From: a virus
Direction: 5' to 3' (one strand)
Length of the DNA: 39,664 bases
Virus record (IMG/VR): IMGVR_UViG_3300023292_000021
Coordinates: 1-39,664 of that record
Of this stretch, positions 1,974 to 39,191 are shown piece by piece (within the stretch, counting starts at the first letter, position 1; each line of letters opens with the position of its first letter). The translations under genes and the position numbers were made by a program. The notes beneath the pieces are model-generated. The model worked only from the letters and a program-made list of their open reading frames with translations, was not told the origin of the DNA and searched no databases.

Positions 1974-2376
1974 AAGAATCGCTTTCGGCTTGTTGGTAAC
2001 ATTATTGTTGGCTGGGATAACTTACGCCGCAGTCACAAAAACGTTTGTCAGCGCTAAAAATGAAAAATCGACTTACACTTTTGTGTTGGAGGACAATCTG
2101 GATGCTTCCACGACCGTTGATATCAGCGGAGCGAATTGGACAGGGATCGCATCGAAGGGGATCACAGCAGACACGATATCCGTTCAGGTCTCTCCGCATC
2201 CAGCTCCGCCAACGGCTGACGACTGGTTCGATGTCACAGACAATGCAGGGGTAAATCCGTTCGAGGCAGCTAATAATTTTTGGCAACAAAGTCTAGTCGG
2301 ATCGAGAGCATTAAGATTCGTTAGAACGGGAGCAGTGGACGGAGACATAACAATGACATTAACACTATCAAAATAA
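1960..2376 (+). CDS. Predicted secreted beta-rich protein, 138 aa
   Basis: The N-terminus is a clear Sec signal peptide: basic MQKIRR, then a hydrophobic core (GLLVTLLLAG) and a small-residue cleavage region (TYAA, about residues 22-25). The mature part is beta-rich and Thr/Asp-rich (FVLEDNLDASTTVDISGANWTG and similar) and ends with MTLTLSK. The stop overlaps the ATG of the DGR-type target gene, so the two are probably translated together. A signal peptide is unexpected in a tail structural protein. It suggests export from the infected cell or surface display. Function unknown. Confidence 0.75.
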   Translation: MQKIRRIAFGLLVTLLLAGITYAAVTKTFVSAKNEKSTYTFVLEDNLDASTTVDISGANWTGIASKGITADTISVQVSPHPAPPTADDWFDVTDNAGVNPFEAANNFWQQSLVGSRALRFVRTGAVDGDITMTLTLSK

Positions 2377-4175
2377 TGAAAAAATTTTTAGCAACGATTC
2401 TGTTGACCATGTTTTGCGGGGTCGCCCTCGCGGCGAATGGTCCGTTTAAAGCCTCGGAATATCTAAACAAGGCTGATGATATTTTCAAAAGACTTTCTAC
2501 TGGGGCAATTTTGCCAGCTATTGTCACTGATACGATCGGAAATTCGGCGAACAGGATCACTGAGATTTGGGTTGACACTCTTGATGCGACAACGGCAACA
2601 ATCGCCGCTGTTATCACAGGAGCATTGACGGTGGACGTGACCGACCCCGAGGCTCTTTTGGTTCGAAAAAACGGAGACACTGGGGACATTTTTACAGTGG
2701 ACACGACTAATTCTCAAATTCAATTACTAGCTACTGGTGTTTTTGGAACGGCTCCGAACCCAACTCTATCTTTCGGTGATGGAGACACTGGGTTTTATGA
2801 GAGTGCGGATGATAATTTAGATATTTCTATTGGAGGTAGTGAAGCTATGAGAATTGATGAGAGTGGGAATGTGGGGATTGGGACGACTACACCCCAAGAA
2901 AAATTACATGTTGTTGGAAATCTAATTCTTCAAGATGGTTTATTTGATATAGGAGTGAAAAGTGGTGAAAAAATGCAATTTGGGATATGGAATGCTGATT
3001 GGTCTACATTTTCAACAAATATGGTAATTGACAATGTCGGTAATGTCGGAATCGGAACTGCCACACCAGCCTCAAAACTAGACGTAGCAGGTACTATCCG
3101 AGCGCAGGAAATCTGTGATGAGAATGGGGCGAATTGCCGAGATATTTCCAATGGGGAACTAAAAGGTGGTATCTTTGTGGCGGTTTCGGCAGCGTCTACT
3201 GGATCGGCGGCTCATGATGCTGTGGTTGGATACCAAGCGGCGAATGATCTGTGTAATACAGCGTCGACTGGTAGTCATGTTTGTTCTGTTGATGAAGTAC
3301 TAAATACTGTGAATAATATTACTGATCTTTCAGCTCTGTCTGGTTGGTCAGTAGGAGGAACTACTCAAGTTTGGGTTAATTCGGGAGGTGCGAAGTATGC
3401 GCCGGATGATACTCCAGTGGCAGATTGTAATGGTTGGTCAAATGCTACTGTTGATAACTTAGGTTCGTTCTGGATACTAAACTCTACTGGTGGAGGAAGC
3501 GCCGGTGTGGGTTATTGTAATACTTCCAAAGTGTTTGCTTGTTGTGAAGATACTTATATTCCAACTTGTGGGGAAGATCTTACTTATGGTGGAGAGACTT
3601 ATGGAACAGTAAAAATCGGTAATCAGTGTTGGATGGGAGAGAATCTCAATGTAGGGACAATGATTAATTCAACAAGTGGTGGAGATGGAAGCGATGGAGA
3701 ATCAGCAAATAACAGCACAATTGAGAAATATTGTTATTCCAATGATGAAGCTAATTGTACAGCTGAAGGTGGTCTTTACCAGTGGGATGAGGCAATGGCT
3801 TATGCAACAGCGGAGGGCTCACAAGGAATCTGTGCTGACGGGTGGCATATGCCAACTGATGCTGAACAAAATCAACTTGACCAGTATTTGACTGATGCTG
3901 GTAACACTTGTGTTGCTACACGTTTAGGGTGGGATTGCGACACAGCAGGAACAAAACTGAAAACAGGTGGAACATCAGGCTTTGAAGGTCTTCTTACTGG
4001 TTACCGGAGGACTGATTCTTCTTTCTACAATCAGGGGACGGGCACGAGCTATTGGTCTTCCAGTGAGAGCGGTACTAATGCGTGGAGACGTCACTTGAAT
4101 TCAAGTAACTCTACGGTCTACCGTGGCACCCTTAATAAGGGCAGCGGCTTTTCTGTCCGTTGCCTCAAGAACTGA
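2376..4175 (+). CDS. Secreted DGR-type variable protein with FISUMP / C-type-lectin-like C-terminus
   Basis: A 599-aa multidomain protein. Residues 1-20 form a Sec signal peptide (MKKFLATILLTMFCGVALA, predicted cut before ANG). Residues 85-245 hold fibre-like repeats with two NVGIGT-type motifs (GNVGIGTTTP and GNVGIGTATP), common in phage fibres and bacterial adhesins. A Cys-rich middle follows. From about residue 405 there is a FISUMP domain (GETYGTVKIGNQCWMGENLN, then GWHMPTDAEQNQLDQYL). The last 55 residues (LLTGYR, YWSSSES, NAWRRHLNSSN, GFSVRCLKN) match the variable C-type-lectin fold of DGR targets. In this family adenine-directed mutagenesis diversifies the C-terminal ligand-binding surface. 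An Avd-like gene follows 80 bases downstream, but no template repeat or reverse transcriptase is visible. It may be a receptor-binding fibre or, given the signal peptide, a protein shown on the host surface. Confidence 0.85.
   Translation: MKKFLATILLTMFCGVALAANGPFKASEYLNKADDIFKRLSTGAILPAIVTDTIGNSANRITEIWVDTLDATTATIAAVITGALTVDVTDPEALLVRKNGDTGDIFTVDTTNSQIQLLATGVFGTAPNPTLSFGDGDTGFYESADDNLDISIGGSEAMRIDESGNVGIGTTTPQEKLHVVGNLILQDGLFDIGVKSGEKMQFGIWNADWSTFSTNMVIDNVGNVGIGTATPASKLDVAGTIRAQEICDENGANCRDISNGELKGGIFVAVSAASTGSAAHDAVVGYQAANDLCNTASTGSHVCSVDEVLNTVNNITDLSALSGWSVGGTTQVWVNSGGAKYAPDDTPVADCNGWSNATVDNLGSFWILNSTGGGSAGVGYCNTSKVFACCEDTYIPTCGEDLTYGGETYGTVKIGNQCWMGENLNVGTMINSTSGGDGSDGESANNSTIEKYCYSNDEANCTAEGGLYQWDEAMAYATAEGSQGICADGWHMPTDAEQNQLDQYLTDAGNTCVATRLGWDCDTAGTKLKTGGTSGFEGLLTGYRRTDSSFYNQGTGTSYWSSSESGTNAWRRHLNSSNSTVYRGTLNKGSGFSVRCLKN
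4010..4175 (+). other. Candidate DGR variable region (VR)
   Basis: These bases encode the last ~55 residues of the FISUMP protein. The coding pattern is typical of DGR variable regions: runs of TGG/TCT/AGC/GGC codons, with the invariant GGCTTTTCTGTCCGTTGC end. The stretch looks richer in G and C than the bases around it. No second, adenine-rich copy (template repeat) occurs in the window on either strand, so which bases vary cannot be read here. Confidence 0.6.
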
Positions 4176-4215
4176 GTATCCGACTATTTGTCTATTTGAC
4201 TATTTAAGCTATTCA
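4176..4215 (+). repeat. GACTATTT-type tandem repeats just after the VR
   Basis: Immediately after the stop codon come GACTATTT, GTCTATTT, GACTATTT and AGCTATTC as consecutive imperfect octamers. Canonical DGRs carry an initiation-of-homing sequence and sometimes a cruciform at this position. The repeats could serve such a role or mark where the cassette was joined. The role is inference; the repeats themselves are plain. Confidence 0.5.
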
Positions 4216-4255
4216 GAAATGAAGAAAATCAATGTTTTAAATCTTACTAAAAGAA

Positions 4256-4597
4256 ATGGCTACATACGATAATTTACCAGTGTATAGAGTTAGTTATGAA
4301 TTATTAGTAGAGTTATTTCGTTACACGAAAGATTTTAGTAAAGAATATAAATATACAGTAGGAGAAAGTATAAAAACAGAAGTTTTAGAAATGATTAAAA
4401 ATGTTTATCGTGCTAATAGTGTAGAAAGTAAAAAAGAATATATTCGCTCAGCTCGGGAAAACGTAGAAACTATTCGTTTGTTTTTGCGACTTTTAAAAGA
4501 TTTACACCAAATAAGTTTAAAAAAATTTGTGTTTCTGAATGAAAAGATTGAATCACTTTCTAAACAGTTATTTGCTTGGCACAAATCTTCAAATTGA
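4256..4597 (+). CDS. avd: Avd-like four-helix-bundle protein (DGR accessory)
   Basis: A 113-aa all-helical protein resembling the bacterial Avd / 23S-rRNA-intervening-sequence four-helix family. The match includes the start (NLPVYRVSYELLVELFRYTK), KYTVGESIKTEVLEMI, the NVYRANS turn and the C-terminal LKKFVFLNEKIESLSKQL. In DGRs, Avd forms a pentameric barrel that binds the reverse transcriptase and the template RNA. It sits directly downstream of a FISUMP variable protein, the standard DGR gene order. Codon use (TTA, ATA, CGT) is more AT-rich than in its neighbours, which hints at separate acquisition. The stand-alone four-helix family also exists outside DGRs, but the neighbourhood favours Avd. 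Confidence 0.85.
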   Translation: MATYDNLPVYRVSYELLVELFRYTKDFSKEYKYTVGESIKTEVLEMIKNVYRANSVESKKEYIRSARENVETIRLFLRLLKDLHQISLKKFVFLNEKIESLSKQLFAWHKSSN

Positions 4598-4821
4598 ATT
4601 TTTAAGAGAAAATATTTGCTTCTTTTTTTTTATTTCTTAAAATTTATTTTAGGTCAGAGTCTTTTTTTGTTACGTACAGAAAAGAGCGAACCATTATACT
4701 CAGTTCAACAATCCTCTTGTTTCTCAAACAAGGAAATCAGTCTCATTTCTTGCGCTTAAGGAAGTTATTGAGCAAAAAATTTATTTTGACTCTCTAAAAG
4801 AGTGTGATAACTTAAAAACAA
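4598..4821. other. Non-coding spacer after avd, with hairpins
   Basis: A canonical DGR would have its template repeat and reverse transcriptase here, and neither is present. The spacer is T-rich at first (4620-4665). It holds a perfect hairpin, CTTGTTT-CTC-AAACAAG (4716-4732), and an ACTCT-N5-AGAGT inverted repeat near its end. A weak promoter-like pair, TTGACT (4786-4791) and TAACTT (4808-4813), precedes the next gene. I see no similarity to the variable region. Confidence 0.55.
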
Positions 4822-5307
4822 ATGCCAAAACCTTTTAGAAACATAATGCTGACGCTGATTCTAACCGCCTCTGGTGGGACTTTGTTTTTTAGCGGTCTAC
4901 TGTCTGACAAAAACGAATGCGAAGCGACCAGAACAGAATTATTACAAGAATTGAACGAAAAATCTTTGTCGCCGATCAGGGGGATCCAGCTCATGGGAAT
5001 AAATGAATATGGATGTGGGGTTTTGTCGAGCGATATTTCAGAAGCCAATCAATTAAAGATATCCAATCTGAGAACGGACGGAGATGTTTTTGTGTTTTAC
5101 AGCGATGCAGATTATCAAATAAGAATGGAGACCCTTCTGAATAAAAGGAAAAATCGAAAAAAAGGAGAACCGGATTACGATTCGCTTGAGGAGTTTTACG
5201 AGACTATTGCGATCCTGAATCATGCAATAAAAGGGTCTGTAAAAATTGACGGTCCAGAATTAAACAAAATCGATAAAAAGATTGCTGAAAAATTAATGAA
5301 AAAATAA
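4822..5307 (+). CDS. Predicted exported or membrane-anchored protein, 161 aa
   Basis: Residues 1-27 form a basic start (MPKPFRN) and one hydrophobic segment (IMLTLILTASGGTLFFSGLL), acting as a signal peptide or anchor. The rest is soluble and charged, with a helical C-terminus ending in LNKIDKKIAEKLMKK. No family is recognised. Together with the two upstream signal-peptide genes and avd it makes a block of non-tail genes between the tail terminator and the tail tube. Confidence 0.7.
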   Translation: MPKPFRNIMLTLILTASGGTLFFSGLLSDKNECEATRTELLQELNEKSLSPIRGIQLMGINEYGCGVLSSDISEANQLKISNLRTDGDVFVFYSDADYQIRMETLLNKRKNRKKGEPDYDSLEEFYETIAILNHAIKGSVKIDGPELNKIDKKIAEKLMKK

Positions 5308-5345
5308 ATTTGTAAAAAAATTTAACTAGCAATAAACTCTAATTG

Positions 5346-5468
5346 ATGAAAAAGGACTCTCTAAAAACAAAAGAAAAAACTTTAAAGAAGGAGTTGTATT
5401 TTAACAACAAAAATTCTGTTATGGCCACATCATTAAAAGAGGCAAATTCTTTACTTTCTAAAAAATAA
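5346..5468 (+). CDS. Short basic protein, 40 aa
   Basis: ATG 5346 to TAA 5468. The product is Lys-rich (MKKDSLKTKEKTLKKE start) and ends three bases before the tail-tube start. No family is recognised. It could be a leader peptide or a small tail-associated protein. The coding call rests on tight packing with the next gene. Confidence 0.4.
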   Translation: MKKDSLKTKEKTLKKELYFNNKNSVMATSLKEANSLLSKK

Positions 5469-5470
5469 CA

Positions 5471-6460
5471 ATGGGTGCAGAAATTGGTCGGCGTTCGCAA
5501 GTGGCAATTGGTCGTGAGGAAACATCGTATGGAACGCTTTCTGCGTCCTTGCTCGGGCTTCCGTTCACAGACTTGACGGTCAATGAGACTAAAAAGACTG
5601 TTCCGAACAATCAAGCTTATGGAAGAATTGAGAAAAATAGCGAAGGATCAAAAATTGGATCCCAAGAAGCGGAGGTTGTAATGTCTGGGGTTGTTTCAGT
5701 TGTTGCGATTGGTTACTTTTTGAAAGCAATATTCGGAACAATGACAACTGCGGACGACACGCCGGTTGCTAATTCCGACACTCACACTTTTATAGTTGAT
5801 AATGATTCAAACGAACATCCATCATATTCGATAGTTTATAAAGACGGAATTCAACAATTGGCAGTTCTCGGAGCTAGATTAAACAGTTTCACGATAAATA
5901 TCGTTGCTGGAGAATGGGCGACGTTTGAAGCAAATTTTATCGGGAAATTCCCTGTGACGAATGCTTCGTCAATTACATATACCGACGAGGAAAAATTTAC
6001 TGCGGCGATGGCATCTCTAAAGATGGGCGCAAATATAGCAGGGCTTGGAGCGGCAATTCCCGTTGTTGAAGGATCAATAATTTTCGAAAAGAACACAAAG
6101 CCTCAACCAGTATGGGGTAGCGTTGATTTGTTGAAAACAATAAATGAGGCATTCGATGTTCGGGCAGAAATAACAAAACTATGGGAAGATACCACACAAA
6201 GGGCTTTGTTTACCGGCCACACAGTTCAAGCGTTGCAAGTTAAAATAACGACTGATGTATTCGTAACAGGATCAACGCCCTACGATCTAGAAATAAATAT
6301 CAGAAACGGGAAAGTCACAGAACACGCAATTGATCGAGGACTCGACAATGTAATGGAAGAATCTTTCACTCTAATGGGTGAATATGATTTCTCTGAAGCG
6401 TCTATGGTTGACGCTGTTTTGATAAATGGTACCGACGGCTCTGTTTACGGAGTTGGGTAA
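5471..6460 (+). CDS. Major tail tube protein
   Basis: A 329-aa beta-rich protein with the layout of siphovirus tail tube proteins. It starts GAEIGRRSQVAIGREETSYGT, the usual start of this family, which describes a gated start then a barrel. Central segments include HPSYSIVYKDG and LNSFTINIVAGEWATFEANFIG, the long strand pair of the tube fold. The C-terminus is MEESFTLMGEYDFSEASM. It is followed by a strong terminator and then by the moron and chaperone genes, the usual tube-chaperone-tape order. Confidence 0.8.
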   Translation: MGAEIGRRSQVAIGREETSYGTLSASLLGLPFTDLTVNETKKTVPNNQAYGRIEKNSEGSKIGSQEAEVVMSGVVSVVAIGYFLKAIFGTMTTADDTPVANSDTHTFIVDNDSNEHPSYSIVYKDGIQQLAVLGARLNSFTINIVAGEWATFEANFIGKFPVTNASSITYTDEEKFTAAMASLKMGANIAGLGAAIPVVEGSIIFEKNTKPQPVWGSVDLLKTINEAFDVRAEITKLWEDTTQRALFTGHTVQALQVKITTDVFVTGSTPYDLEINIRNGKVTEHAIDRGLDNVMEESFTLMGEYDFSEASMVDAVLINGTDGSVYGVG

Positions 6461-6475
6461 AATAAAATTAGGAGA

Positions 6476-6519
6476 TCATTAATTAGTCTGTTCTTGGGGG
6501 CGGACTTTTTAATGATTTT
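6476..6519 (+). terminator. Intrinsic terminator after the tail tube gene
   Basis: A long hairpin: TCATTAA-TTAGTCTG (6476-6490), a G-rich loop (6491-6500), and CGGACTTT-TTAATGA (6501-6515). All but one or two positions pair, including one G-U, and TTTT follows (6516-6519). It would stop most transcription from the highly expressed tube gene, and it directly precedes an independent promoter. Confidence 0.75.
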
Positions 6520-6520
6520 G

Positions 6521-6548
6521 TTGACTTTTATTAAATGTTAGTTAATAT
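6521..6548 (+). promoter_or_regulatory. Moron promoter
   Basis: TTGACT (6521-6526) and TAATAT (6543-6548) with a 16-base spacer. The spacer has TTAAA and GTTAGTTAA, a decayed version of the palindrome found in the early promoters. The -10 ends seven bases before ATG 6556, which would give a leaderless transcript. Confidence 0.6.
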
Positions 6549-6555
6549 TTTATTG

Positions 6556-6771
6556 ATGAAGAAGAAATGTCCACATTGCGATAGCTATAGAGCAATTAGT
6601 GCTTCTGATTTCTGTTTTGGAATTTTTGTGATAGCTTGTTTATTTAGCATTTTTAATATTGCTTTTTTTATAATTGGAGTTCCATTTATAACCTGTTTTA
6701 TTCTGATGAAAATTTTTCCAAAAACGATAAAAAATCAATACGTATGCAAAAATTGTAATTTTAAATTTTAA
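6556..6771 (+). CDS. Zinc-ribbon membrane miniprotein (moron)
   Basis: A 71-aa product from ATG 6556. A longer frame starting at 6535 would begin inside the promoter, so I prefer 6556. It opens with CPHC (MKKKCPHCDSYRA), has one long hydrophobic stretch from about FCFGIFVIACLF to FITCFILM (two closely spaced membrane helices), and closes with CKNC (YVCKNCNFKF). The two Cys pairs would form a zinc ribbon on the cytoplasmic side. It lies between its own terminator and promoter and the tail chaperone gene, so it is a classic moron. Function unknown. Confidence 0.7.
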   Translation: MKKKCPHCDSYRAISASDFCFGIFVIACLFSIFNIAFFIIGVPFITCFILMKIFPKTIKNQYVCKNCNFKF

Positions 6772-7073
6772 TGAAATTAAAAGAATCCGGCATCGAGTTT
6801 AAAACTAAAGTTTTTTTGACTTATGGGGATGTCAAAAGATATGAAGAAATAATGTTTGACGGAGTTGAAACAAAAGAAAACGGAACGCTTGACCAGGGAA
6901 CGATGCTAAAAAACGTGAAGAAACAGGCCGAGGAATTGATTCTTATTTCTGTGAATCTTTTTGGCGGTAAAAAAGAGATTACTCGAGAAGATCTTTTGGG
7001 AATGCACATCAATGATTACAAACAACTGTTGAAAGAATGTGAGAAACTCATCAACGATAAAAAAAAAGCTTAA
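6771..7073 (+). CDS. Tail assembly chaperone (G-type)
   Basis: A 100-aa acidic helical protein directly upstream of the tape measure, the position of lambda gpG. It begins with a beta hairpin region (IEFKTKVFLTYGDVKRYEE) and ends in a nine-A run that encodes Lys codons just before the stop (DDKKKA-type end). A second frame without its own start continues to 7297, the expected organisation for programmed -1 frameshifting. The ATG overlaps the stop of the moron. Confidence 0.7.
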   Translation: MKLKESGIEFKTKVFLTYGDVKRYEEIMFDGVETKENGTLDQGTMLKNVKKQAEELILISVNLFGGKKEITREDLLGMHINDYKQLLKECEKLINDKKKA

Positions 7074-18134: not shown

Positions 18135-20129
18135 ATGAATCTATTTAAAGAATTGTCACCGGAAAAATACGAGGAAGTCGCAAGTAATTTTTTGATTAAC
18201 AGTTTCAGTTATTCTGGACTTTCTACTTTTTCTCGGCACGAAAAAGTTTTTGAAAAGGAATATATTTATGGAGAATATGGGAAGAAATCAGCGTCTTCGG
18301 TTGGTGGGAATGCCTATCACAATGCGCTTGAACAATTCTTTTTAAACAAAAAAGACGGAAAAAAAGACTTAGATCTTGTTGATTTGCAACAAATAGCTTT
18401 TGATTATGTCGATTCTATTACGGCCAATAAGTGGAAGATCCAAAAAACAACTCCATCTGTGGAGGATTGTATTATTGAAGCAAATAAAATTGTCACAAAG
18501 ACTTTGGAGAATTTTCTCGGGGAGCTAGAAGCTTATGAAGATCTTGAAATTCTCGAAGTAGAGTTGAAATTTGATGAATTTGTGACAATCAATGGTGTTG
18601 ACATTCCTCTGCCAATTCACGGGAAAATTGACATAGTTGCAAAGACGAAGGACGGAAAAATTGTTGTGATAGATCATAAATCAGGAAAAAAACACACAGC
18701 AGAAAGTGATCAGCAGTTTGTTTATTGCAAACAGGGGATTTTATACGTCCTCGGATATGAAGCTTTTTCTGGTAGAAAAGTTGACGAGTTTTGGTTCGTT
18801 GAAAACAAAATTTCGAAATACAAAAACGGAGCGAAACAACTCCAAGTACTGAAAACAGAAATAAATGATGACACTAGAAAATTGTACGAAGCGCAAGTGT
18901 ACGAGCCTTTGCGGAGAATGCTTGAGGCGACCAGCAATCCTGATTATGTTTATTTGATCAACGACGGCGACAACTGGACAAGTAAAGCAGAAATTTACGA
19001 ATTTTGGGCCAAGACAATGATTGCCGAAATTGAAGAGTTCAACGTTCCAGAAAACAAACGAGACATAATTGCAAAACGACTTAATAAAATCAGAGATGCT
19101 TCTTTGGTAGCAATTTCTCCAAAAGTTATCAAAACTTTTCAAAAAAATGCATCAGCTTTTATCACTTATGATTTATCAAACAAAAACATGACAAACCAAG
19201 AAAAAATTCAGCACCGGCTTCGATCTTTCAATCTTCCTGCACAAGTGGCGCATAAATTCGAAGGGTACTCGAGCGATACTTACTTGCTCGAAATACAGGC
19301 TGGAACAAAACTCACCGCTATTTACAAGCACAGATTGGACATTGCGAACGCTCTCGGAGTCGAGAGCGTTAGGATGGAATCAAATCTGTTTGTCTACGAA
19401 GGAAAATCTTATTTTGTTATCGAAGCATCGAAAAAAAGAGAGAAAGATTTATTTTTTGACGAAAAATATTTAAAAGATAGTAAAATTCCGGTTGGATTGA
19501 ATAATTTTGGAGAAACTGTGGTTTGGGATTTGAAAAACGAATCGACCCCAAATGCACTAGTTTGCGGATCAGTCGGGTCCGGGAAATCTGTTTGGCTTCG
19601 GAGCACGATAGAGTATGCCAAGCTTTGCGGAGTAGAGAATTTTGTAATTTTTGACCCGAAGTTTGAGTTTTTGGAATATAAAAAAGAATCTAACTTTGAA
19701 GTTTTCAATGAGATCGAAGATTGCCAAATAAAAATGATGCTGCTTATTGATGATATGGAGAGAAGAATAAGAAATCACGAGAAAAAAATGACGATGGTAA
19801 TTTTTGACGAATTTGCCGATGCGGTTTTGCAATCTAAAATTAAAGGAGGTTCGAACATTGAAGAATCAATGAGAATGCTTTTGCAAAAAGGTCGATCGTC
19901 AGGATTTAGAGTAATCGCCGCGACTCAAAGGGCATCAGTCAAAGTTATCACCGGAGATGCTAAAGTGAATTTCCCGGTTCAAATTTGCTTCCGGGTGCCA
20001 AAGGAAATCGATTCAAAAGTTGTTCTTGATGAGCCAGGGGCAGAAAGTTTGGCCGGGCAGGGGGACGGATTAATCAACAGCCCAGAGTATCCGAGCTTAA
20101 TAAGGTTTCAAGGTTTTTTTATTAAATAA
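18135..20129 (+). CDS. PD-(D/E)XK nuclease fused to an FtsK-type DNA translocase
   Basis: A 664-aa single polypeptide with two enzyme halves. Residues 25-260 carry a RecB/Cas4-like nuclease: His62 in GNAYHNALEQFF, Asp166 in HGKIDIVAK, Asp180 and Lys182 in VVIDHKSG, and a Gln...Tyr helix (QFVYCKQGILYVLGY). Residues of about 345-660 carry an FtsK/SpoIIIE-like module: a beta domain (YLLEIQAGTKLTAIYKHRLD), Walker A GSVGSGKS (478-485), Walker B VIFDEF with Asp558 and Glu559, and the sensor ATQRASVKVITGDAKVNF. The nuclease may degrade one strand and the motor could pull DNA. The arrangement parallels HerA-NurA end-resection pairs but is one gene, next to RecT. Domain reading is firm; substrate and direction are inferred. 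Confidence 0.85.
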   Translation: MNLFKELSPEKYEEVASNFLINSFSYSGLSTFSRHEKVFEKEYIYGEYGKKSASSVGGNAYHNALEQFFLNKKDGKKDLDLVDLQQIAFDYVDSITANKWKIQKTTPSVEDCIIEANKIVTKTLENFLGELEAYEDLEILEVELKFDEFVTINGVDIPLPIHGKIDIVAKTKDGKIVVIDHKSGKKHTAESDQQFVYCKQGILYVLGYEAFSGRKVDEFWFVENKISKYKNGAKQLQVLKTEINDDTRKLYEAQVYEPLRRMLEATSNPDYVYLINDGDNWTSKAEIYEFWAKTMIAEIEEFNVPENKRDIIAKRLNKIRDASLVAISPKVIKTFQKNASAFITYDLSNKNMTNQEKIQHRLRSFNLPAQVAHKFEGYSSDTYLLEIQAGTKLTAIYKHRLDIANALGVESVRMESNLFVYEGKSYFVIEASKKREKDLFFDEKYLKDSKIPVGLNNFGETVVWDLKNESTPNALVCGSVGSGKSVWLRSTIEYAKLCGVENFVIFDPKFEFLEYKKESNFEVFNEIEDCQIKMMLLIDDMERRIRNHEKKMTMVIFDEFADAVLQSKIKGGSNIEESMRMLLQKGRSSGFRVIAATQRASVKVITGDAKVNFPVQICFRVPKEIDSKVVLDEPGAESLAGQGDGLINSPEYPSLIRFQGFFIK

Positions 20130-30868: not shown

Positions 30869-31399
30869 ATGCCTGTAAAAAAACATAACAAAGCTGAATT
30901 GTGGAAGTCGTTCTTGGAGAGCGAATATTTAAGTGTTCAAGCGTGGGGAAAGGAAAGCGGATTTACAGCGAAAAAAAATAAAAATAGGTTGTTGAAAGGA
31001 ATTGAATCCATAACTAAGGGATGGGGAGTAAAAAAAGAAACCTTTTTAAAGAAAGCGATTGTAAAGTTTGAGGAGAAGTTCAGCACCGAATTAGAGAGGA
31101 ATTGGAGCAAGGCAATGAAGAACGCGTCGATGGCGGAGATGAAGATAATTAATGACATGGCGGCGGTCATTCACTCTGGGGCAACTCCTAGGAACACGCA
31201 GGATTTTGAGCGGGTATTCAAGATGTTTCGATTGGTTCTTGGCAAATCAACAAACAACAATCAGAATACGAACGCGAATTTAAACATTCCGTTAGCGGAA
31301 GACGAAGAAAAGAAGATTGGGGAAATAATCTCAAGAAACAATGCCTTTTATAACAGACCAGGACTGGAAACTTTTGAGGGAGAAAAAAACGAGGATTGA
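30869..31399 (+). CDS. Small terminase subunit candidate
   Basis: A 176-aa helical protein directly upstream of TerL, overlapping it by 59 bases. The N-terminal half has a DNA-binding-like helical start (KAELWKSFLESEYLSVQAWGKES), and the middle is a charged coiled region (FEEKFSTELERNWSKAMKNAS). The Asn-rich stretch (KSTNNNQNTNANLN) is a flexible linker. Assigned as TerS by position, length and helical content; sequence identity to a family is not visible. Confidence 0.6.
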   Translation: MPVKKHNKAELWKSFLESEYLSVQAWGKESGFTAKKNKNRLLKGIESITKGWGVKKETFLKKAIVKFEEKFSTELERNWSKAMKNASMAEMKIINDMAAVIHSGATPRNTQDFERVFKMFRLVLGKSTNNNQNTNANLNIPLAEDEEKKIGEIISRNNAFYNRPGLETFEGEKNED

Positions 31400-32918
31400 G
31401 CTGTGCAGGCATAGTTTCAAACACTTCTTTTTTTGGTACTTCTCGAAATACATGCACCACGCGACCCCTATGTATCATTATCAAATGTTCGAGGATTGCC
31501 AGTTCAGTGGTTTTCAATATTTAATTTGGATCATGTTCCGGGATAGCGCAAAAACTTCTTTGGCGCGTGCCTTGGTCGTTTGGTGGATTGTGTACGAAAA
31601 AAAGATGAATATCGGATGGGTTGGGTATGATCTGAAAAAAGCCGGAAAAAATGCTCGAGCGATCGCCAACGAATTACAGGCAAACGCAAAGATAAATCAG
31701 GACTTCGGGCAATTGTACTACGAGGAAGAACAAAAGGTCAGGCAATCCAAGCCGAAAATGGTTGCAGACTTCGTTTGTGCGAACGGGGTATTCTTTAGGG
31801 CTCTTTCGACTCAAATTTCGACACGTGGTGAGTTAGAGGCGGAGTTTCGGCCAGACGGTTACGTGATAGACGATTTCGAGAACGATAAAACAAAAGGATC
31901 GTTCCTGAAAACTCAAAGTGTGATCGATTTTATTGATGAAACAATTTCAGGAACGAGTGTTGATTGTGATATTTTGTTTCTTTGTAATTACATCACTAAA
32001 TACGGAAGTGTCGAATATTTGAAGAAAAAAGCTCATAAAAATAAAAACTGGGCTGTTCGGCAGGTTGCATTGATCGAGAAAGGGAAGATTACTTGGCCGT
32101 CGAAGTTTATGATGACCGATGAGGAAATGGAAAAATACAACGAGGGAAGAAAAAAGAAGGAACGTGTGAAAAGCATTGAAACTATGAAACGAGACATGGG
32201 ATCTGCGCGGTTCGGTCAGGAGGATTTGAATATTCCTGAAGCGGAGGGCGGAAACATCGTAAAGGATGTTTGGTTCAAGGATGGGCGCGGTCGATACGAG
32301 AAGTCTAAAATATTGGTCGATGACAAGGGCGATTTCTTTTGGGTTACTGAACACGGAAATATTCGAGGAGTTGCTTTTACGGCATCAGATCCGGCAATCT
32401 CTAAAAAAGAAACGTCGGATGAACGATCGATTGTAACGATCGTTAAATTTGTTATTCGTGGAACAAAGCCCTTGCAAACTTACTACTTGGTTTTTGAGTC
32501 AAAGGCTGGGAGATGGGGACTTCTCGATTATGGGAAAGAACTAAAAATCACAAGGGAGAGCTTTAACCCGAGAAAGATCGGAGTTGAATCAAATGGTGTG
32601 CAGGAAGTTTTCAGAGAAGTTTTCGCTACAAACGACATAAGCACGGTTGCTTTGAATCCTGATGGCGACAAAGTCAGGCGAATGATGAGGAACGTTGGGG
32701 ATTTAGAATATGGCCGAGTTCTTTTTCCATTTGATGGAAGTTGTGACAATTGTTTAAATGAATTAATCTCTTTTACAGGAAAAGACGGAGAACCTGACAA
32801 TCTGGTTGATGGTTTCAATTACGCTATGCAGATGGCGAAAGAAGGAGGATCATCAGATTACAAAGACGAGGAGACAGACGAAACCACAAGTGCCGAAGGT
32901 GCCAAGCAAAAATTCTAA
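31341..32918 (+). CDS. Large terminase subunit (TerL)
   Basis: A 525-aa packaging motor. The ATPase has a Walker A variant MFRDSAKTSLA with Arg67, Lys71 and Thr72, the form typical of terminases, and Walker B DGYVIDDFE with Asp177, Asp178 and Glu180. The C-terminal RNase-H-like nuclease is visible in AFTASDPAISKKETSDE (first Asp), KIGVESNGVQ, and DGFNYAMQM (last Asp). This pairs with the portal that follows. It cuts and pumps the concatemer during packaging. Confidence 0.9.
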   Translation: MPFITDQDWKLLREKKTRIELCRHSFKHFFFWYFSKYMHHATPMYHYQMFEDCQFSGFQYLIWIMFRDSAKTSLARALVVWWIVYEKKMNIGWVGYDLKKAGKNARAIANELQANAKINQDFGQLYYEEEQKVRQSKPKMVADFVCANGVFFRALSTQISTRGELEAEFRPDGYVIDDFENDKTKGSFLKTQSVIDFIDETISGTSVDCDILFLCNYITKYGSVEYLKKKAHKNKNWAVRQVALIEKGKITWPSKFMMTDEEMEKYNEGRKKKERVKSIETMKRDMGSARFGQEDLNIPEAEGGNIVKDVWFKDGRGRYEKSKILVDDKGDFFWVTEHGNIRGVAFTASDPAISKKETSDERSIVTIVKFVIRGTKPLQTYYLVFESKAGRWGLLDYGKELKITRESFNPRKIGVESNGVQEVFREVFATNDISTVALNPDGDKVRRMMRNVGDLEYGRVLFPFDGSCDNCLNELISFTGKDGEPDNLVDGFNYAMQMAKEGGSSDYKDEETDETTSAEGAKQKF

Positions 32919-32956
32919 ATTTGATTTTAAATAAAAGAATTATAATAATAAAACTG

Positions 32957-35326
32957 ATGCCAAAAGAAATTGGATATTCCGGGACCGAAATCTTCTCAGG
33001 ATTCATTACTGAGGATTACAATGTAAAACTCCAATTCCCTCAGTCGATTGATGTTTTTGAGGAAATGAGAAAGGGTGATGCTACTGTTCAGGCAGTTTTA
33101 AAAGCAATTAAGCTCCCAATAATCAACGGGACTTTTTTCGTTACTCCAGCGAGTGACGACAAACGAGACATTGAGATTGCGGAGTTTGTAAATACGCAAT
33201 TTTTTAAACGGTTGGTTTTCAAAAGTTTTATTTCTAAAATCTTAATCGCGTTCGATTTCGGGTTCATGACATTTGAGAAAGTGTTTCAACGTGAAGGAGA
33301 TAAAATCTTCTATAAAAAATTTGCCGATCGTTTGCCGAAAAGTATTCAGAACTGGATCACGACAAAAGAATTTGCAAGGGACCACGAACATCCAGGAATC
33401 GAGCAAAACATAATGAACGATCTTACTCCAACAAAAGACGGAAGGAATGTTAAGATTCCTGGTTGGAAATTGTTTCGATACACAGTAGATCAAGAAGGAG
33501 AGAATTATGAGGGGGTTAGTATTTTGCGTGCGCCCTACAAGCACTGGTTCATGAAGAACTCGGCCTATAAAATAGAACTCATCTCAGCAGAGCGAACCGG
33601 AGCGGGGATACCCGTTGCGAGGAAAACTGTGGAAGGAGACATCAAAGACGCAGAGAAAGCAGAAGTGACGGCAACACTAAAAGGATTGAGGGCAAATGAG
33701 AAGGCCCACTTAATTGAACCTTTCGGATGGGAGTTCAGATTTGAAAGCCCAAGTTCACAATTCGATTTTGAAAAGATGATCAATCATCACGACCGAGAAA
33801 TCACAAAAAGCTCGTTGGCACAATTCTTGGAGTTGGGAGTGAACAAAGGCGCGCTTTCTCAAAGTAAGTCGGATCAAGATTTGTTTTTAAAATCAATCAT
33901 GGCTCACGTAGCGATGATTCTTGAGAAGATTAATCGGGAATTGGTGACTGAGATTGTTTTAATGAATTTCGATAACGTGAAAGAGTTCCCGAAGATCGAA
34001 GTTTCAGGTATTGAGCGAGACGATATGGAAGGGCTTTCAAACGCTGTTCAAAGATTAGGGCAGGCTGGATTCATTACCCCTGACTTGGACACAGAAAACA
34101 CTCTCCGAAAGAAACTCAAATTCCCCGAAAAAGAAGAGGAAGATTTTGTTCCACCGGCAAACAGAAAACAGGATGACGTTGATCCTGACGACAAAAAGAA
34201 AGCAAAGGAAAAGGAAAAAATAAAAGAGGAAAAAACAGAAAAAAAAAAGCTTAGTTTAGCTAGGATTGATTTGCAGGACGGGAAACCGGCTACAAAGCGA
34301 GAACGGGATTTTGTTAAAAACATCACTAAAAACGAGAAGATCATCTCGAAAGAGTTTTCTGTTTTGGAAAAAGACGTTTCGAAAATAAACAAATCTTTGG
34401 ATAAATTCTTGACCTCAAAATACAAAGAAGCAAAAACGATTGAGAAGAACGGAGAGATTCGGCTTTCTCGTTCTGGGAATTCCAAGCTGATTAAAGAAAT
34501 GACGGATCGAGTCTCCGAGGATTGGGATGTTTTCAATAAGAAATGGAACAACGCAAGCATCGCAAAAAGACTTGCAGATGAAGGATTCGAACGTGGATCC
34601 AAATCTGCTGAGAAACTTTCTGTCGCATGGGCTGCTCGTGGGTTCCGTTTCAATATTAGTAAGGTGATAAAGAACGCACCGATCAACGTTAACGAAAAGA
34701 TTAATGATCACTTCGGAACTGAGGCTGTTGTGGCGGTGGCGATTGCATCAATCTCAAGCATGGTCACCTCGGCAACGAATGACAATCAAATGAAACTGAG
34801 CTTTGAGACTTACCCACGAAGCTCATTCAAACAAGCAGTGGCAGATGATTTTCCAGATGTGGAGAAATTCAAGATGGTTTTGCCGGAAGGAGAAACTGAA
34901 CGATTGCTGAAGGAACGGCCAGGGGGATTCTCAATTTTAAATGTTTTCACAATATTGACGATCGCAGAATGGGCAAAGAAACGAGAAGATGAAAACGGTA
35001 ACCCCATAATTTTCCCGGTGCATCCGAATTCAAAAGATTATTATTTGCCGATACTTCCTGAAGACGAAGAAGAGGAAAAAGACATCAGCAGAAAACAACG
35101 AAAGCTATTGGAGGAAGCAAAGGATTTATCCCTGAGTGATGACAAGTCTAAAATAGCGAATTGTTATAATCGAATGCGGACAGAGTTTCTAAACGGAGAA
35201 AGGAAAAGTTTCTCATACGACGAAAGGGGAATGATTAAGGATTTGACCGATAAACATTTGGCCGGAGAAATAGGGGCGTTGGAAATAATCGAAACACTTG
35301 ATCAGAGTTTTTCCACGGCCGAATAA
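32957..35326 (+). CDS. Portal protein, DUF935-like, with long C-terminal extension
   Basis: 789 aa from ATG 32957. The start at 32921 adds a short hydrophobic stretch and is less likely. Residues of about 1-400 match Mu gp29 / DUF935-type portals (FSGFITEDYNVKLQFPQS, FDFGFMTFEKVFQ, GAGIPVARKTVEGD, FLELGVNKGALSQS). From about residue 400 there is an Asp/Lys-rich linker (PDDKKKAKEKEKIKEEK) and then an extension of more than 300 residues, mostly helical and without a recognised domain. It may be a fused minor head protein. Forms the dodecameric DNA gate. Confidence 0.8.
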   Translation: MPKEIGYSGTEIFSGFITEDYNVKLQFPQSIDVFEEMRKGDATVQAVLKAIKLPIINGTFFVTPASDDKRDIEIAEFVNTQFFKRLVFKSFISKILIAFDFGFMTFEKVFQREGDKIFYKKFADRLPKSIQNWITTKEFARDHEHPGIEQNIMNDLTPTKDGRNVKIPGWKLFRYTVDQEGENYEGVSILRAPYKHWFMKNSAYKIELISAERTGAGIPVARKTVEGDIKDAEKAEVTATLKGLRANEKAHLIEPFGWEFRFESPSSQFDFEKMINHHDREITKSSLAQFLELGVNKGALSQSKSDQDLFLKSIMAHVAMILEKINRELVTEIVLMNFDNVKEFPKIEVSGIERDDMEGLSNAVQRLGQAGFITPDLDTENTLRKKLKFPEKEEEDFVPPANRKQDDVDPDDKKKAKEKEKIKEEKTEKKKLSLARIDLQDGKPATKRERDFVKNITKNEKIISKEFSVLEKDVSKINKSLDKFLTSKYKEAKTIEKNGEIRLSRSGNSKLIKEMTDRVSEDWDVFNKKWNNASIAKRLADEGFERGSKSAEKLSVAWAARGFRFNISKVIKNAPINVNEKINDHFGTEAVVAVAIASISSMVTSATNDNQMKLSFETYPRSSFKQAVADDFPDVEKFKMVLPEGETERLLKERPGGFSILNVFTILTIAEWAKKREDENGNPIIFPVHPNSKDYYLPILPEDEEEEKDISRKQRKLLEEAKDLSLSDDKSKIANCYNRMRTEFLNGERKSFSYDERGMIKDLTDKHLAGEIGALEIIETLDQSFSTAE

Positions 35327-35371: not shown

Positions 35372-36526
35372 ATGAAGAAACATTTCTTTTTTAGTTACAA
35401 CCTACAATCCGAGGAAGGCAAGTGGCAACAAATCCTTCGTGTTATTGATGCGAGTAATTCCATGAGGGGAGTTAAAGTCACAAAAAAAGACCTCCAGGAG
35501 ATGGTTGATAATTTCAATGCTAATGTTTTAAAACAAAAGAAAAACGAATTGCAGGTTAATTACAGTCACGAATCATACGCTGAAGCGGCGGGATGGATCA
35601 CAGAAGTTAGGATAAAAGGAAAATTCCTTGAGGCCCTAATCCGTTGGACTCCAGCGGCAAAAACTAAAATAGAAGAAGAAGAATTTAGATATTTTTCCGC
35701 AGAATTCGCACCAGCTTGGCAAGATGTCGAGTCTGAAGAGGCGCACACAAACGTATTACTAGGCGCGGCTCTCACAAATATTCCCTTTGTCTCCGGCATG
35801 AAAGCCGTGACACTTAGCGATGATGGAGGAAGCGAAGGTAAATTTATATTTTTTAAAACCGATTTAGAGATGAAAAACTTTAAAAAACTACTTTTGGCTT
35901 TGCAATCGAAGCAAAATGTTTCTATTGGTGAAGCTGAATTGATGAAACTACAATTTGCCACTCTTTCCGAAGAAGAACAAACTTCACTCCAAGCTGAGGT
36001 CACAAAAGTTGAGACTCTAGCAAAAGAAAACGAAGCAACTTCCAAAACAGAAAAAGAAGAATTGAGTACGAAACTTGCTGAAGCAGAAAAAGCTCTTGCA
36101 TTAGCACAAGACGGAGAGACTGATCAAGTGAAAAAACTTGCTAAAGATCTCAAAGAGTCGCAGGCAACAACTTCTGAACTTCAGAAAGGTCATGATAAAC
36201 TCAAACTAGATCTTCGAACAAAGGATCTAACCGAGCAAATCACGGAACTTGCCGACAAAGGGAAAGTTCTTGCGAAAGACATCGAGGCCACTGTTGATAT
36301 GGCATTATCTCAGGGGTCAGAGGAAAAACAAAACAAGTTTGTTGAATTCCTTTCAAATATGCCACAGAAGGTTGATTTCAGTGAAATTGGTAGTTCTACC
36401 GCAGAAGATGCGTCAGAGGATGCCAAGATTGCCAAAATTAACAAACTTGCGGATGAGGCGTTCGCAACGGACAAGTCTAAAACACTTGGCCAACACCGAG
36501 AACATTTCACTCGTGAACTTTCATAG
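35372..36526 (+). CDS. Head maturation protease / scaffold (Mu gpI-like)
   Basis: A 384-aa protein with the Mu I / phage_GPI-type layout. N-terminal protease segments are NELQVNYSHESYAEAAGWI with the catalytic-type His, FRYFSAEFAPAWQDV, and VLLGAALTNIPFVSGMKAV. From about residue 165 it becomes a long coiled coil rich in Glu, Lys, Ala and Leu (SEEEQTSLQAEVTKVETLAK), the scaffold part, ending near GQHREHFTREL. It would cleave itself and guide assembly of the head. Confidence 0.85.
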   Translation: MKKHFFFSYNLQSEEGKWQQILRVIDASNSMRGVKVTKKDLQEMVDNFNANVLKQKKNELQVNYSHESYAEAAGWITEVRIKGKFLEALIRWTPAAKTKIEEEEFRYFSAEFAPAWQDVESEEAHTNVLLGAALTNIPFVSGMKAVTLSDDGGSEGKFIFFKTDLEMKNFKKLLLALQSKQNVSIGEAELMKLQFATLSEEEQTSLQAEVTKVETLAKENEATSKTEKEELSTKLAEAEKALALAQDGETDQVKKLAKDLKESQATTSELQKGHDKLKLDLRTKDLTEQITELADKGKVLAKDIEATVDMALSQGSEEKQNKFVEFLSNMPQKVDFSEIGSSTAEDASEDAKIAKINKLADEAFATDKSKTLGQHREHFTRELS

Positions 36527-37005: not shown

Positions 37006-37953
37006 ATGCCATTTCCAACATTACAAACCGGAAGAGTGGATAAGCAACTTACGAATATTTCATTAGCCTACACGAATGAAAACTTCATTCATGATAAAAT
37101 TCTTCCATTGGTTCCAAACCTAGCGGAAGAAACAGGGGTGATCGGAAAATTCGCTGACAATGCCCACTTTAGAACTTTTGAATCGGTTCGTGCCATCAAT
37201 GACCTTGGTGAACATTTCATCGATTACAAACAAACCAACGATACTGCATACGCAATTCAATTTCACGATCTAGCAAAAACAATTCCAGATCGAATCAAGA
37301 GACAATTTCAAAAACCATTTGATGCAAGAAACGATGCATTAAGAGTTTTGGAGTCTTCTCGTGAATTAGAAATGGAGGTAGGGTTGGCGACAGCATTGGC
37401 CGACACTTCGATTCTTACTAACAATGCCACTCCATCAGTCCTTTGGGATGACCCAACTTCAGATCCATTGGGAGACATGGAGACAGCGAGACAGGCAATT
37501 AGGCTTGCCATTGGGAGATTCCCAAATAAGGGATGGACAAATTCAGTTGTTATTTCAAAACTTAAAACACATCCTCAGTTTGTTGCGAAATTTACTGGTG
37601 GTGGTGTAATAGCTGTTTTGACTGACGAGAATGTAGTCACCGTAATAAAGAGCCACCTTAAGTTAAAAGAACTTCTGGTTGGTGAAGCGATCAAAGCTAC
37701 TTCAAAACAAGGACAAACCCTAACAAAAGGAGAAGTTTGGTCCGACGATTTCGGACTTTTCTTCGCTCCCGATGTTGCGTCACTTCACACTCCGTCATTC
37801 GGATACAGATTCGAAATGGCAGGGCAAAACAAACGAGTTTCCAATCGGAGACATGTTTCAGATCGTGGAGATGTTACTGAGCTCGATTGGGCTTACCAAG
37901 ATAAGATTTTGGACGTAAATTCCGCTTATCTTTTGGACCAAGTTATTACTTAA
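37006..37953 (+). CDS. Major capsid protein
   Basis: A 315-aa HK97-fold-type MCP. Segments of the family are ENFIHDKILPLVPNLAEETG near the N-terminus, WDDPTSDPLGDMETARQAIR (a common MCP segment), GWTNSVVISKLKTHPQFV, ELLVGEAIKATSKQGQ, and a final VTELDWAYQDKILDVNSAYLL. Its position after the protease and decoration genes fits. It should be the most abundant protein of the particle. Confidence 0.85.
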   Translation: MPFPTLQTGRVDKQLTNISLAYTNENFIHDKILPLVPNLAEETGVIGKFADNAHFRTFESVRAINDLGEHFIDYKQTNDTAYAIQFHDLAKTIPDRIKRQFQKPFDARNDALRVLESSRELEMEVGLATALADTSILTNNATPSVLWDDPTSDPLGDMETARQAIRLAIGRFPNKGWTNSVVISKLKTHPQFVAKFTGGGVIAVLTDENVVTVIKSHLKLKELLVGEAIKATSKQGQTLTKGEVWSDDFGLFFAPDVASLHTPSFGYRFEMAGQNKRVSNRRHVSDRGDVTELDWAYQDKILDVNSAYLLDQVIT

Positions 37954-38821: not shown

Positions 38822-38834
38822 AAACCAATTAATG

Positions 38835-39191
38835 ATGAAAATCGATTTTTCACAAACGCTTACAGGAATTGAGGGGAAGGCAATTCGAGACCTTAAAGAA
38901 ACTGACGAATTAGACGAAAACGGAGCAAAAAAGACCGTATTGGTAGACGTAACATTGGACGAGATTTGTAAAAAAGCACTTCTGACAGTATTTGTTCAAC
39001 ATAACGAACCGGAAAGTCTTGATGAAGTAAAAAAATTCGAATACGCACAATTTGCACAAAAAATATTCCAAAATCCGAGTGGACTCGATGTCACGATGGA
39101 GGAAATTGTTTTGCTGAAAAAAAGGATCGGATTGTTTTTTAATCAAGAAGTTGTTTTTGCATCGTATAATTTACTAGACCCAAAAGAATAA
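38835..39191 (+). CDS. Structural-operon protein, 118-119 aa
   Basis: Starts with ATGATG (38832 or 38835). Acidic helical protein (DLKETDELDENGAKK; TLDEICKKALLTVFVQHN; KKFEYAQFAQKIFQNP), ending with NQEVVFASYNLLDPKE. It looks like a small siphovirus connector or tail-assembly chaperone protein, but I cannot identify the family. The 3' end is repeated at 1-84. Confidence 0.6.
   Translation: MKIDFSQTLTGIEGKAIRDLKETDELDENGAKKTVLVDVTLDEICKKALLTVFVQHNEPESLDEVKKFEYAQFAQKIFQNPSGLDVTMEEIVLLKKRIGLFFNQEVVFASYNLLDPKE

Follow-up and report, generated by a model that had tools for sequence, protein, structure and literature searches.

How does a phage genome come to hold the target gene and the accessory protein Avd of a diversity-generating retroelement (DGR) with neither a reverse transcriptase (RT) nor a template repeat (TR)? 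The locus lies in IMG/VR record IMGVR_UViG_3300023292_000021, the whole of which (39,664 bases) is referred to here as the window. From the letters alone, the original prediction had described it as an orphan DGR that, if the genome is complete, must either be diversified in trans or be frozen. The features on which the answer turns are listed below, in window coordinates.

1-539, no strand: contig start overlapping the contig end (39108-39664), which closes the map at about 39.1 kb
1960-2376, + strand: exported protein with a signal-peptide-like N terminus, directly upstream of the target; a core gene of the phage family (related phages have a 58% identical homologue in this position)
2376-4175, + strand: DGR-type target of 599 aa, with a signal-peptide-like N terminus, a fibre-like N-terminal part and a C-terminal FISUMP lectin-like domain (3609-4172)
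3996-4175, + strand: variable-region-like (VR-like) 3' end of the target, which aligns with the TRs of Patescibacteria DGRs (best about 72% identity)
4146-4165, + strand: IMH-like 20-mer GGCTTTTCTGTCCGTTGCCT, found as an exact 20-mer at FISUMP gene 3' ends elsewhere
4256-4597, + strand: Avd, four-helix-bundle accessory protein of 113 aa (profile, homologue and structure model)
4653-4776, + strand: 5' leader of the DGR template RNA, up to the expected TR start, its 3' part partly degraded (covariance model R1 and alignment)
4777-4821, + strand: site of the missing TR and RT, a short intergenic stretch (45 bases) before the next phage gene, with no TR or RT similarity
4822-5307, + strand: next phage gene, a membrane or exported-like protein (related phage L128 has a weak homologue, 28%, in this position)

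A closed phage genome

The window encodes TerL (31341-32918), a portal (32921-35326), a head maturation protease (35372-36526) and a major head protein (37006-37953), and the tail genes start at base 910, with Phage_tail_S at 910-1344 and the tail tube at 5471-6460. RecT, DnaB, an N6/N4 methyltransferase and an S-AdoMet synthetase are also encoded. Adjoining RecT, a single open reading frame (18135-20129) combines two halves, one like a PD-(D/E)XK exonuclease and the other an FtsK-like ATPase. An intergenic motif, TTGACTTT...AAAGATCGTTTAA, recurs at 6485, 14093, 14706, 23673 and 30805, and its copies are probably phage promoters or operators.

Completeness, which the original prediction had left as an "if", can be settled: the genome is complete, with a closed map of about 39.1 kb. 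The overlap between the contig ends spans 557 columns at ~88% identity and is exact over its first ~126 and last ~57 bases, and window bases 1-81 are the end of the gene at 38832-39191. The two ends are divergent strain variants (about 88%) of one locus, a sign of strain mixture in the assembly. The order of genes across the junction was read from related phages, namely L117/L123/L127 (IMGVR_UViG_3300005939_000728), L126 and L128 (IMGVR_UViG_3300031227_000298), in which the major head protein is followed by the 37972, 169, 406, 910, 1366 and 1960 genes and then by the target N terminus. Because the ends overlap at one locus and the relatives are collinear across the junction, there is no gap able to hide an RT, which excludes an assembly gap as the cause of its absence. 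Collapse of the VR and TR repeats during assembly can be rejected by reasoning, as it would join the VR to the RT and drop Avd; here, Avd and the leader are present and no TR follows.

Searches with TerL, the tail tube and gene 4822 gave no close phage relatives; those used here were found via the portal and gene 1960. Of these, L128 keeps the whole gene order. At its target locus, a fibre-like gene that lacks FISUMP (3228-4826) precedes another exported protein, whose C terminus is a FISUMP domain (4768-7053); the homologue of gene 4822 and the tail tube come next, and no Avd, leader or RT was found within the 13.2 kb examined. An exported lectin-tipped protein thus recurs at the target locus in this family of phages, accompanied by differing machinery or by none.

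Target, Avd and their relatives in Patescibacteria

The target and Avd stand in DGR order, as first described, and both families are matched by profile. The lectin-type end of the target, first recognized by its motifs, proved to be a FISUMP (C-lectin-like) domain, matched by PF09603 (1.4e-31) and TIGR02145 (1.8e-31). The protein also matches a tail fibre PHROG, its N-terminal 154 aa are 55% identical in a related phage, and a signal-peptide-like start, read directly from the sequence, is common to the target and the genes on both sides of it. A PDB sequence search with the FISUMP profile gave no match, and the fold model of the domain (pLDDT 54) is too poor for use. Directly past the target stop codon (4173-4255) lie short tandem 8-mers such as GACTATTT, which resemble the GACTCTTT repeats found after the VR of two Patescibacteria DGRs (L066 and L004).

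Avd is matched by PF22296 (4.7e-13) and by the PHROG 'Avd protein of DGR' (6.3e-21). Its structure model (pLDDT 87) matches Bordetella Avd (4dwl), while a PDB sequence search with the Avd profile returned nothing. The protein is 71% identical to a chromosomal Patescibacteria Avd (G337:C22, L067), and the Avds of known phage records reach only 31% identity to it. In the tree, it falls among the chromosomal Avds of Patescibacteria DGRs, closer to them than to the Avds from other known phages; its end branch measures 0.16 and that of its nearest relative, L067, 0.24. In the dN/dS analysis of avd, synonymous sites were saturated. Judged by its sequence, Avd is intact, not fast-evolving and free of decay. 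In IMG/VR, eight loci carry related Avds, and all eight have an RT close by.

Complete DGRs of the same type can be found in Patescibacteria (CPR). Scanning for the 20 conserved bases at the end of the VR led to Ca. Moranbacteria UBA4824 (DHFM01000057.1, L004) and BP7.bin63 (JAJXZR010000015.1, L003/L066), each with a FISUMP target, Avd, TR and RT, and a further search of 131 genomes of UBA4824's order and a phylum-wide sample of 380 added a dozen more. Wherever the contig extends far enough, the order in related loci is target, Avd, leader, TR, RT. The closest locus, that of G337 (L067), adjoins rpoB/rpoC and ribosomal protein genes and is therefore chromosomal; its RT runs off the contig end. 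The window shares with these DGRs the FISUMP target (domain up to 59-64% identical), an Avd (47-71% identity), the structured leader, the IMH-like 3' end and the order of parts; it differs in having neither TR nor RT, and in being a phage. In addition, relatives of its TerL in Patescibacteria chromosomes (about 22-31% identity) usually lie beside an N6/N4 methyltransferase related to that of the window, and TerL in known phage records gives only about 22% identity over half of the protein. Taken with the affinities of Avd and the leader, these TerL and methyltransferase relationships suggest that the phage host is probably a patescibacterium.

The RNA leader, the missing template and the variable region

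In Patescibacteria DGRs, both sequence and structure of the interval from Avd to TR are conserved. The interval holds two hairpins, one on the 5' side and one of the form CUCUUG...CAAGGA, and a closing helix (CAAUAAYC/GRUUAUU) whose end lies immediately before the TR. Covariation is strong: pairs changed on both sides make up 19 of 27 in a model-fitted alignment, which leans towards its own structure. Matches to this leader in the 131 and 380 Patescibacteria genomes fall inside DGRs with the order target, Avd, leader, TR, RT. No Rfam family matches it. In Pseudomonas phage Cruim01, a similar place, from Avd to RT, is taken by the structured Rfam RNA RT-15 (RF03018), but the Patescibacteria leader does not match it.

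The 750 bases after Avd had been described as holding no RT and no TR. This is so, but they are not empty, as a DGR RNA leader lies at 4653 to about 4776. Covariance model R1, which was built without the window, matches 4653-4800 globally with 44.6 bits (E 1.9e-10), the next match in the window having an E of 0.69. By hand alignment, leader homology stops near 4776 at GTTATTGAGC, which corresponds to the final bases ahead of the TR. A nine-leader model gives the window 30 bits (E 4e-6), compared with 50-71 bits for four held-out Patescibacteria leaders, and the broken pairs are mostly in the closing helix. On these alignments, the leader of the window is real and partly degraded. In several IMG/VR phages, Avd is followed by a more degenerate form of the leader, including cases with the RT upstream or on the other strand. 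A second, partial leader-like hairpin (26.6 bits), perhaps a flanking element, lies downstream of the RT of one Patescibacteria DGR (L062, 1627-1706, - strand).

The absence of the remaining parts holds across the window, as had been claimed. The RVT_1 profile finds no RT in it and does give matches in control genomes; tblastn of ten DGR RTs yields chance matches only. Ungapped scans of both strands, in which template adenines were free to mismatch, found no TR to pair with the VR or with another segment of the window. The template repeats of the relatives match the window at the VR and elsewhere only at chance level. As for another TR/VR pair in the genome, the only candidate was the contig-end overlap, and all other matches were A-rich chance matches or promoter-like repeats. 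Outside the phage, a matching TR was sought in about 520 Patescibacteria genomes, a sample covering a minority of the species of the phylum; none was found, the best reaching about 72%. The expectation of a host RT accompanied by a TR that agrees with the VR outside adenines was thus not borne out in the Patescibacteria genomes searched.

The VR itself says less. Cognate VR/TR pairs of Patescibacteria DGRs differ almost only at template adenines (e.g., at 22 of 54 A and 0 of 126 other sites), so these DGRs have been active. Compared with the relatives' TR, the VR of the window is changed at 11 of 15 template asparagine codons, against 5 of 32 other conserved codons (p = 2e-4). However, in other bacteria, FISUMP genes near which no DGR RT was detected (judged by similarity to ten DGR RTs in up to 8 kb of flanking sequence) are changed at 10-15 of 14-15 Asn sites. 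Substitutions at TR asparagine codons were accordingly dropped as proof of past mutagenesis; as a sequence pattern they are not diagnostic, being unable to separate DGR-driven from ordinary FISUMP divergence. The exact 20-mer occurs at the FISUMP gene 3' end in 11 bacterial contig stretches, two of which are complete Patescibacteria DGRs.

Fate of the truncated cassette

That an RT-less, TR-less remnant stands in a complete genome was supported; 'orphan', however, is better replaced by 'truncated', as target, Avd and leader keep their canonical order. We consider it probable, though well short of certain, that a DGR was cut at the TR boundary, captured and frozen in cis in a phage whose host is probably a patescibacterium. 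A FISUMP lectin domain would sit on a phage fibre-like exported protein, followed by an Avd and a template-RNA leader from a Patescibacteria-type DGR. The break would lie at the 5' boundary of the TR, with the TR and RT lost. The RNA on which RT and Avd act in BPP-1 contains the TR (PMC12875486). A phage without RT and TR cannot make cDNA, and the VR would for this reason be frozen in cis, leaving an ordinary binding domain with the sequence it held when the machinery was lost. The phage lineage would once have had a full cassette, the lectin would be displayed and bind a ligand, and diversification would have stopped. Avd and the leader would be remnants, or Avd may have been retained for another use. 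Since no close relative with a full cassette at the target locus was found, loss from a full cassette, as opposed to capture of a partial one, is what we infer. Three further points count against a truncated and frozen cassette. An undecayed Avd fits poorly with a dead cassette, though a recent loss or another role for Avd would account for it; one genome only shows the truncation with Avd and leader kept; and a single assembled genome may represent one variant of a mixed population, its contig ends differing in strain.

Diversification in trans, the other half of the original alternative, would have a host chromosomal DGR provide RT and template and the phage provide the target and its own Avd. 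Patescibacteria DGRs do have a related Avd and leader and an identical IMH-like 20-mer, the Avd of the phage is intact and conserved, related phage L128 likewise has a FISUMP lectin and no RT in 13 kb, and RT-less targets are reported to be diversified in trans in Thiohalocapsa (PMC10907252). Even so, borrowing in trans is unsupported by our results and seems unlikely to us. The best TR match, at about 72%, is far from cognate pairs in Patescibacteria, which mostly differ only at adenines. A leader cut at the TR has no evident use in trans and is partly degraded, and the VR pattern is common to FISUMP genes without a detected DGR RT within 8 kb.

The strain mixture at the contig ends raises another reading, in which the assembled genome is one RT-less structural variant and others in the population keep TR and RT and diversify in cis. 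Structural variants whose RT and TR are intact have been reported at an apparently incomplete Thiohalocapsa locus (PMC10907252), and an intact, non-accelerated Avd fits a recent loss. No RT-bearing variant was found, however, and the partly degraded leader suggests an older loss; we judge this reading about as unlikely as borrowing in trans. It is very improbable that the phage never had a DGR, with FISUMP as an ordinary lectin domain and Avd and leader as a fragment that is inert or serves another use: FISUMP genes with no DGR RT detected close by do occur in other bacteria and in L128, but Avd and leader stand behind the target in canonical order and spacing, and the domain closely resembles those of Patescibacteria DGR targets.

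The proposed truncated and frozen cassette can be set beside known systems. Complete phage DGRs (Bordetella BPP-1, Burkholderia phage Magia, IMG/VR L071/L074) have the target, Avd and phage context of the window but, unlike it, encode an RT. Borrowing of a host retroelement by a phage had been put forward as a new arrangement; RT-less partial DGRs and trans activity have already been described in cells (PMC4372165, PMC10907252). In DUSEL4 Nanoarchaeota, partial DGRs have a target with a variable region and no RT, and whether they are fossils or remotely diversified was left open (PMC4372165). These share the RT-less target with the window but are cellular and were described as target, VR and cis elements only, whereas the phage keeps Avd and leader. 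Thiohalocapsa PB-PSB1 likewise has loci without RT and/or TR; diversification was observed there, and for some of its VRs another place in the genome holds a TR that agrees at every non-adenine site (PMC10907252), whereas no such TR is known for the window. Our search of the open-access literature turned up no description of a phage genome that keeps target, Avd and leader while lacking TR and RT.

The closed genome of this phage thus documents a DGR cut at its template boundary, with Avd and an RNA leader left in place, and its analysis has brought to light a structured RNA leader, absent from Rfam, in Patescibacteria DGRs. Such a truncated phage DGR makes the diversification in trans of targets outside the element testable in a phage-host pair. 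If diversification in trans were true here, the phage, having shed its RT and template, would be parasitising the mutagenic retroelement of its host and adding its own Avd.
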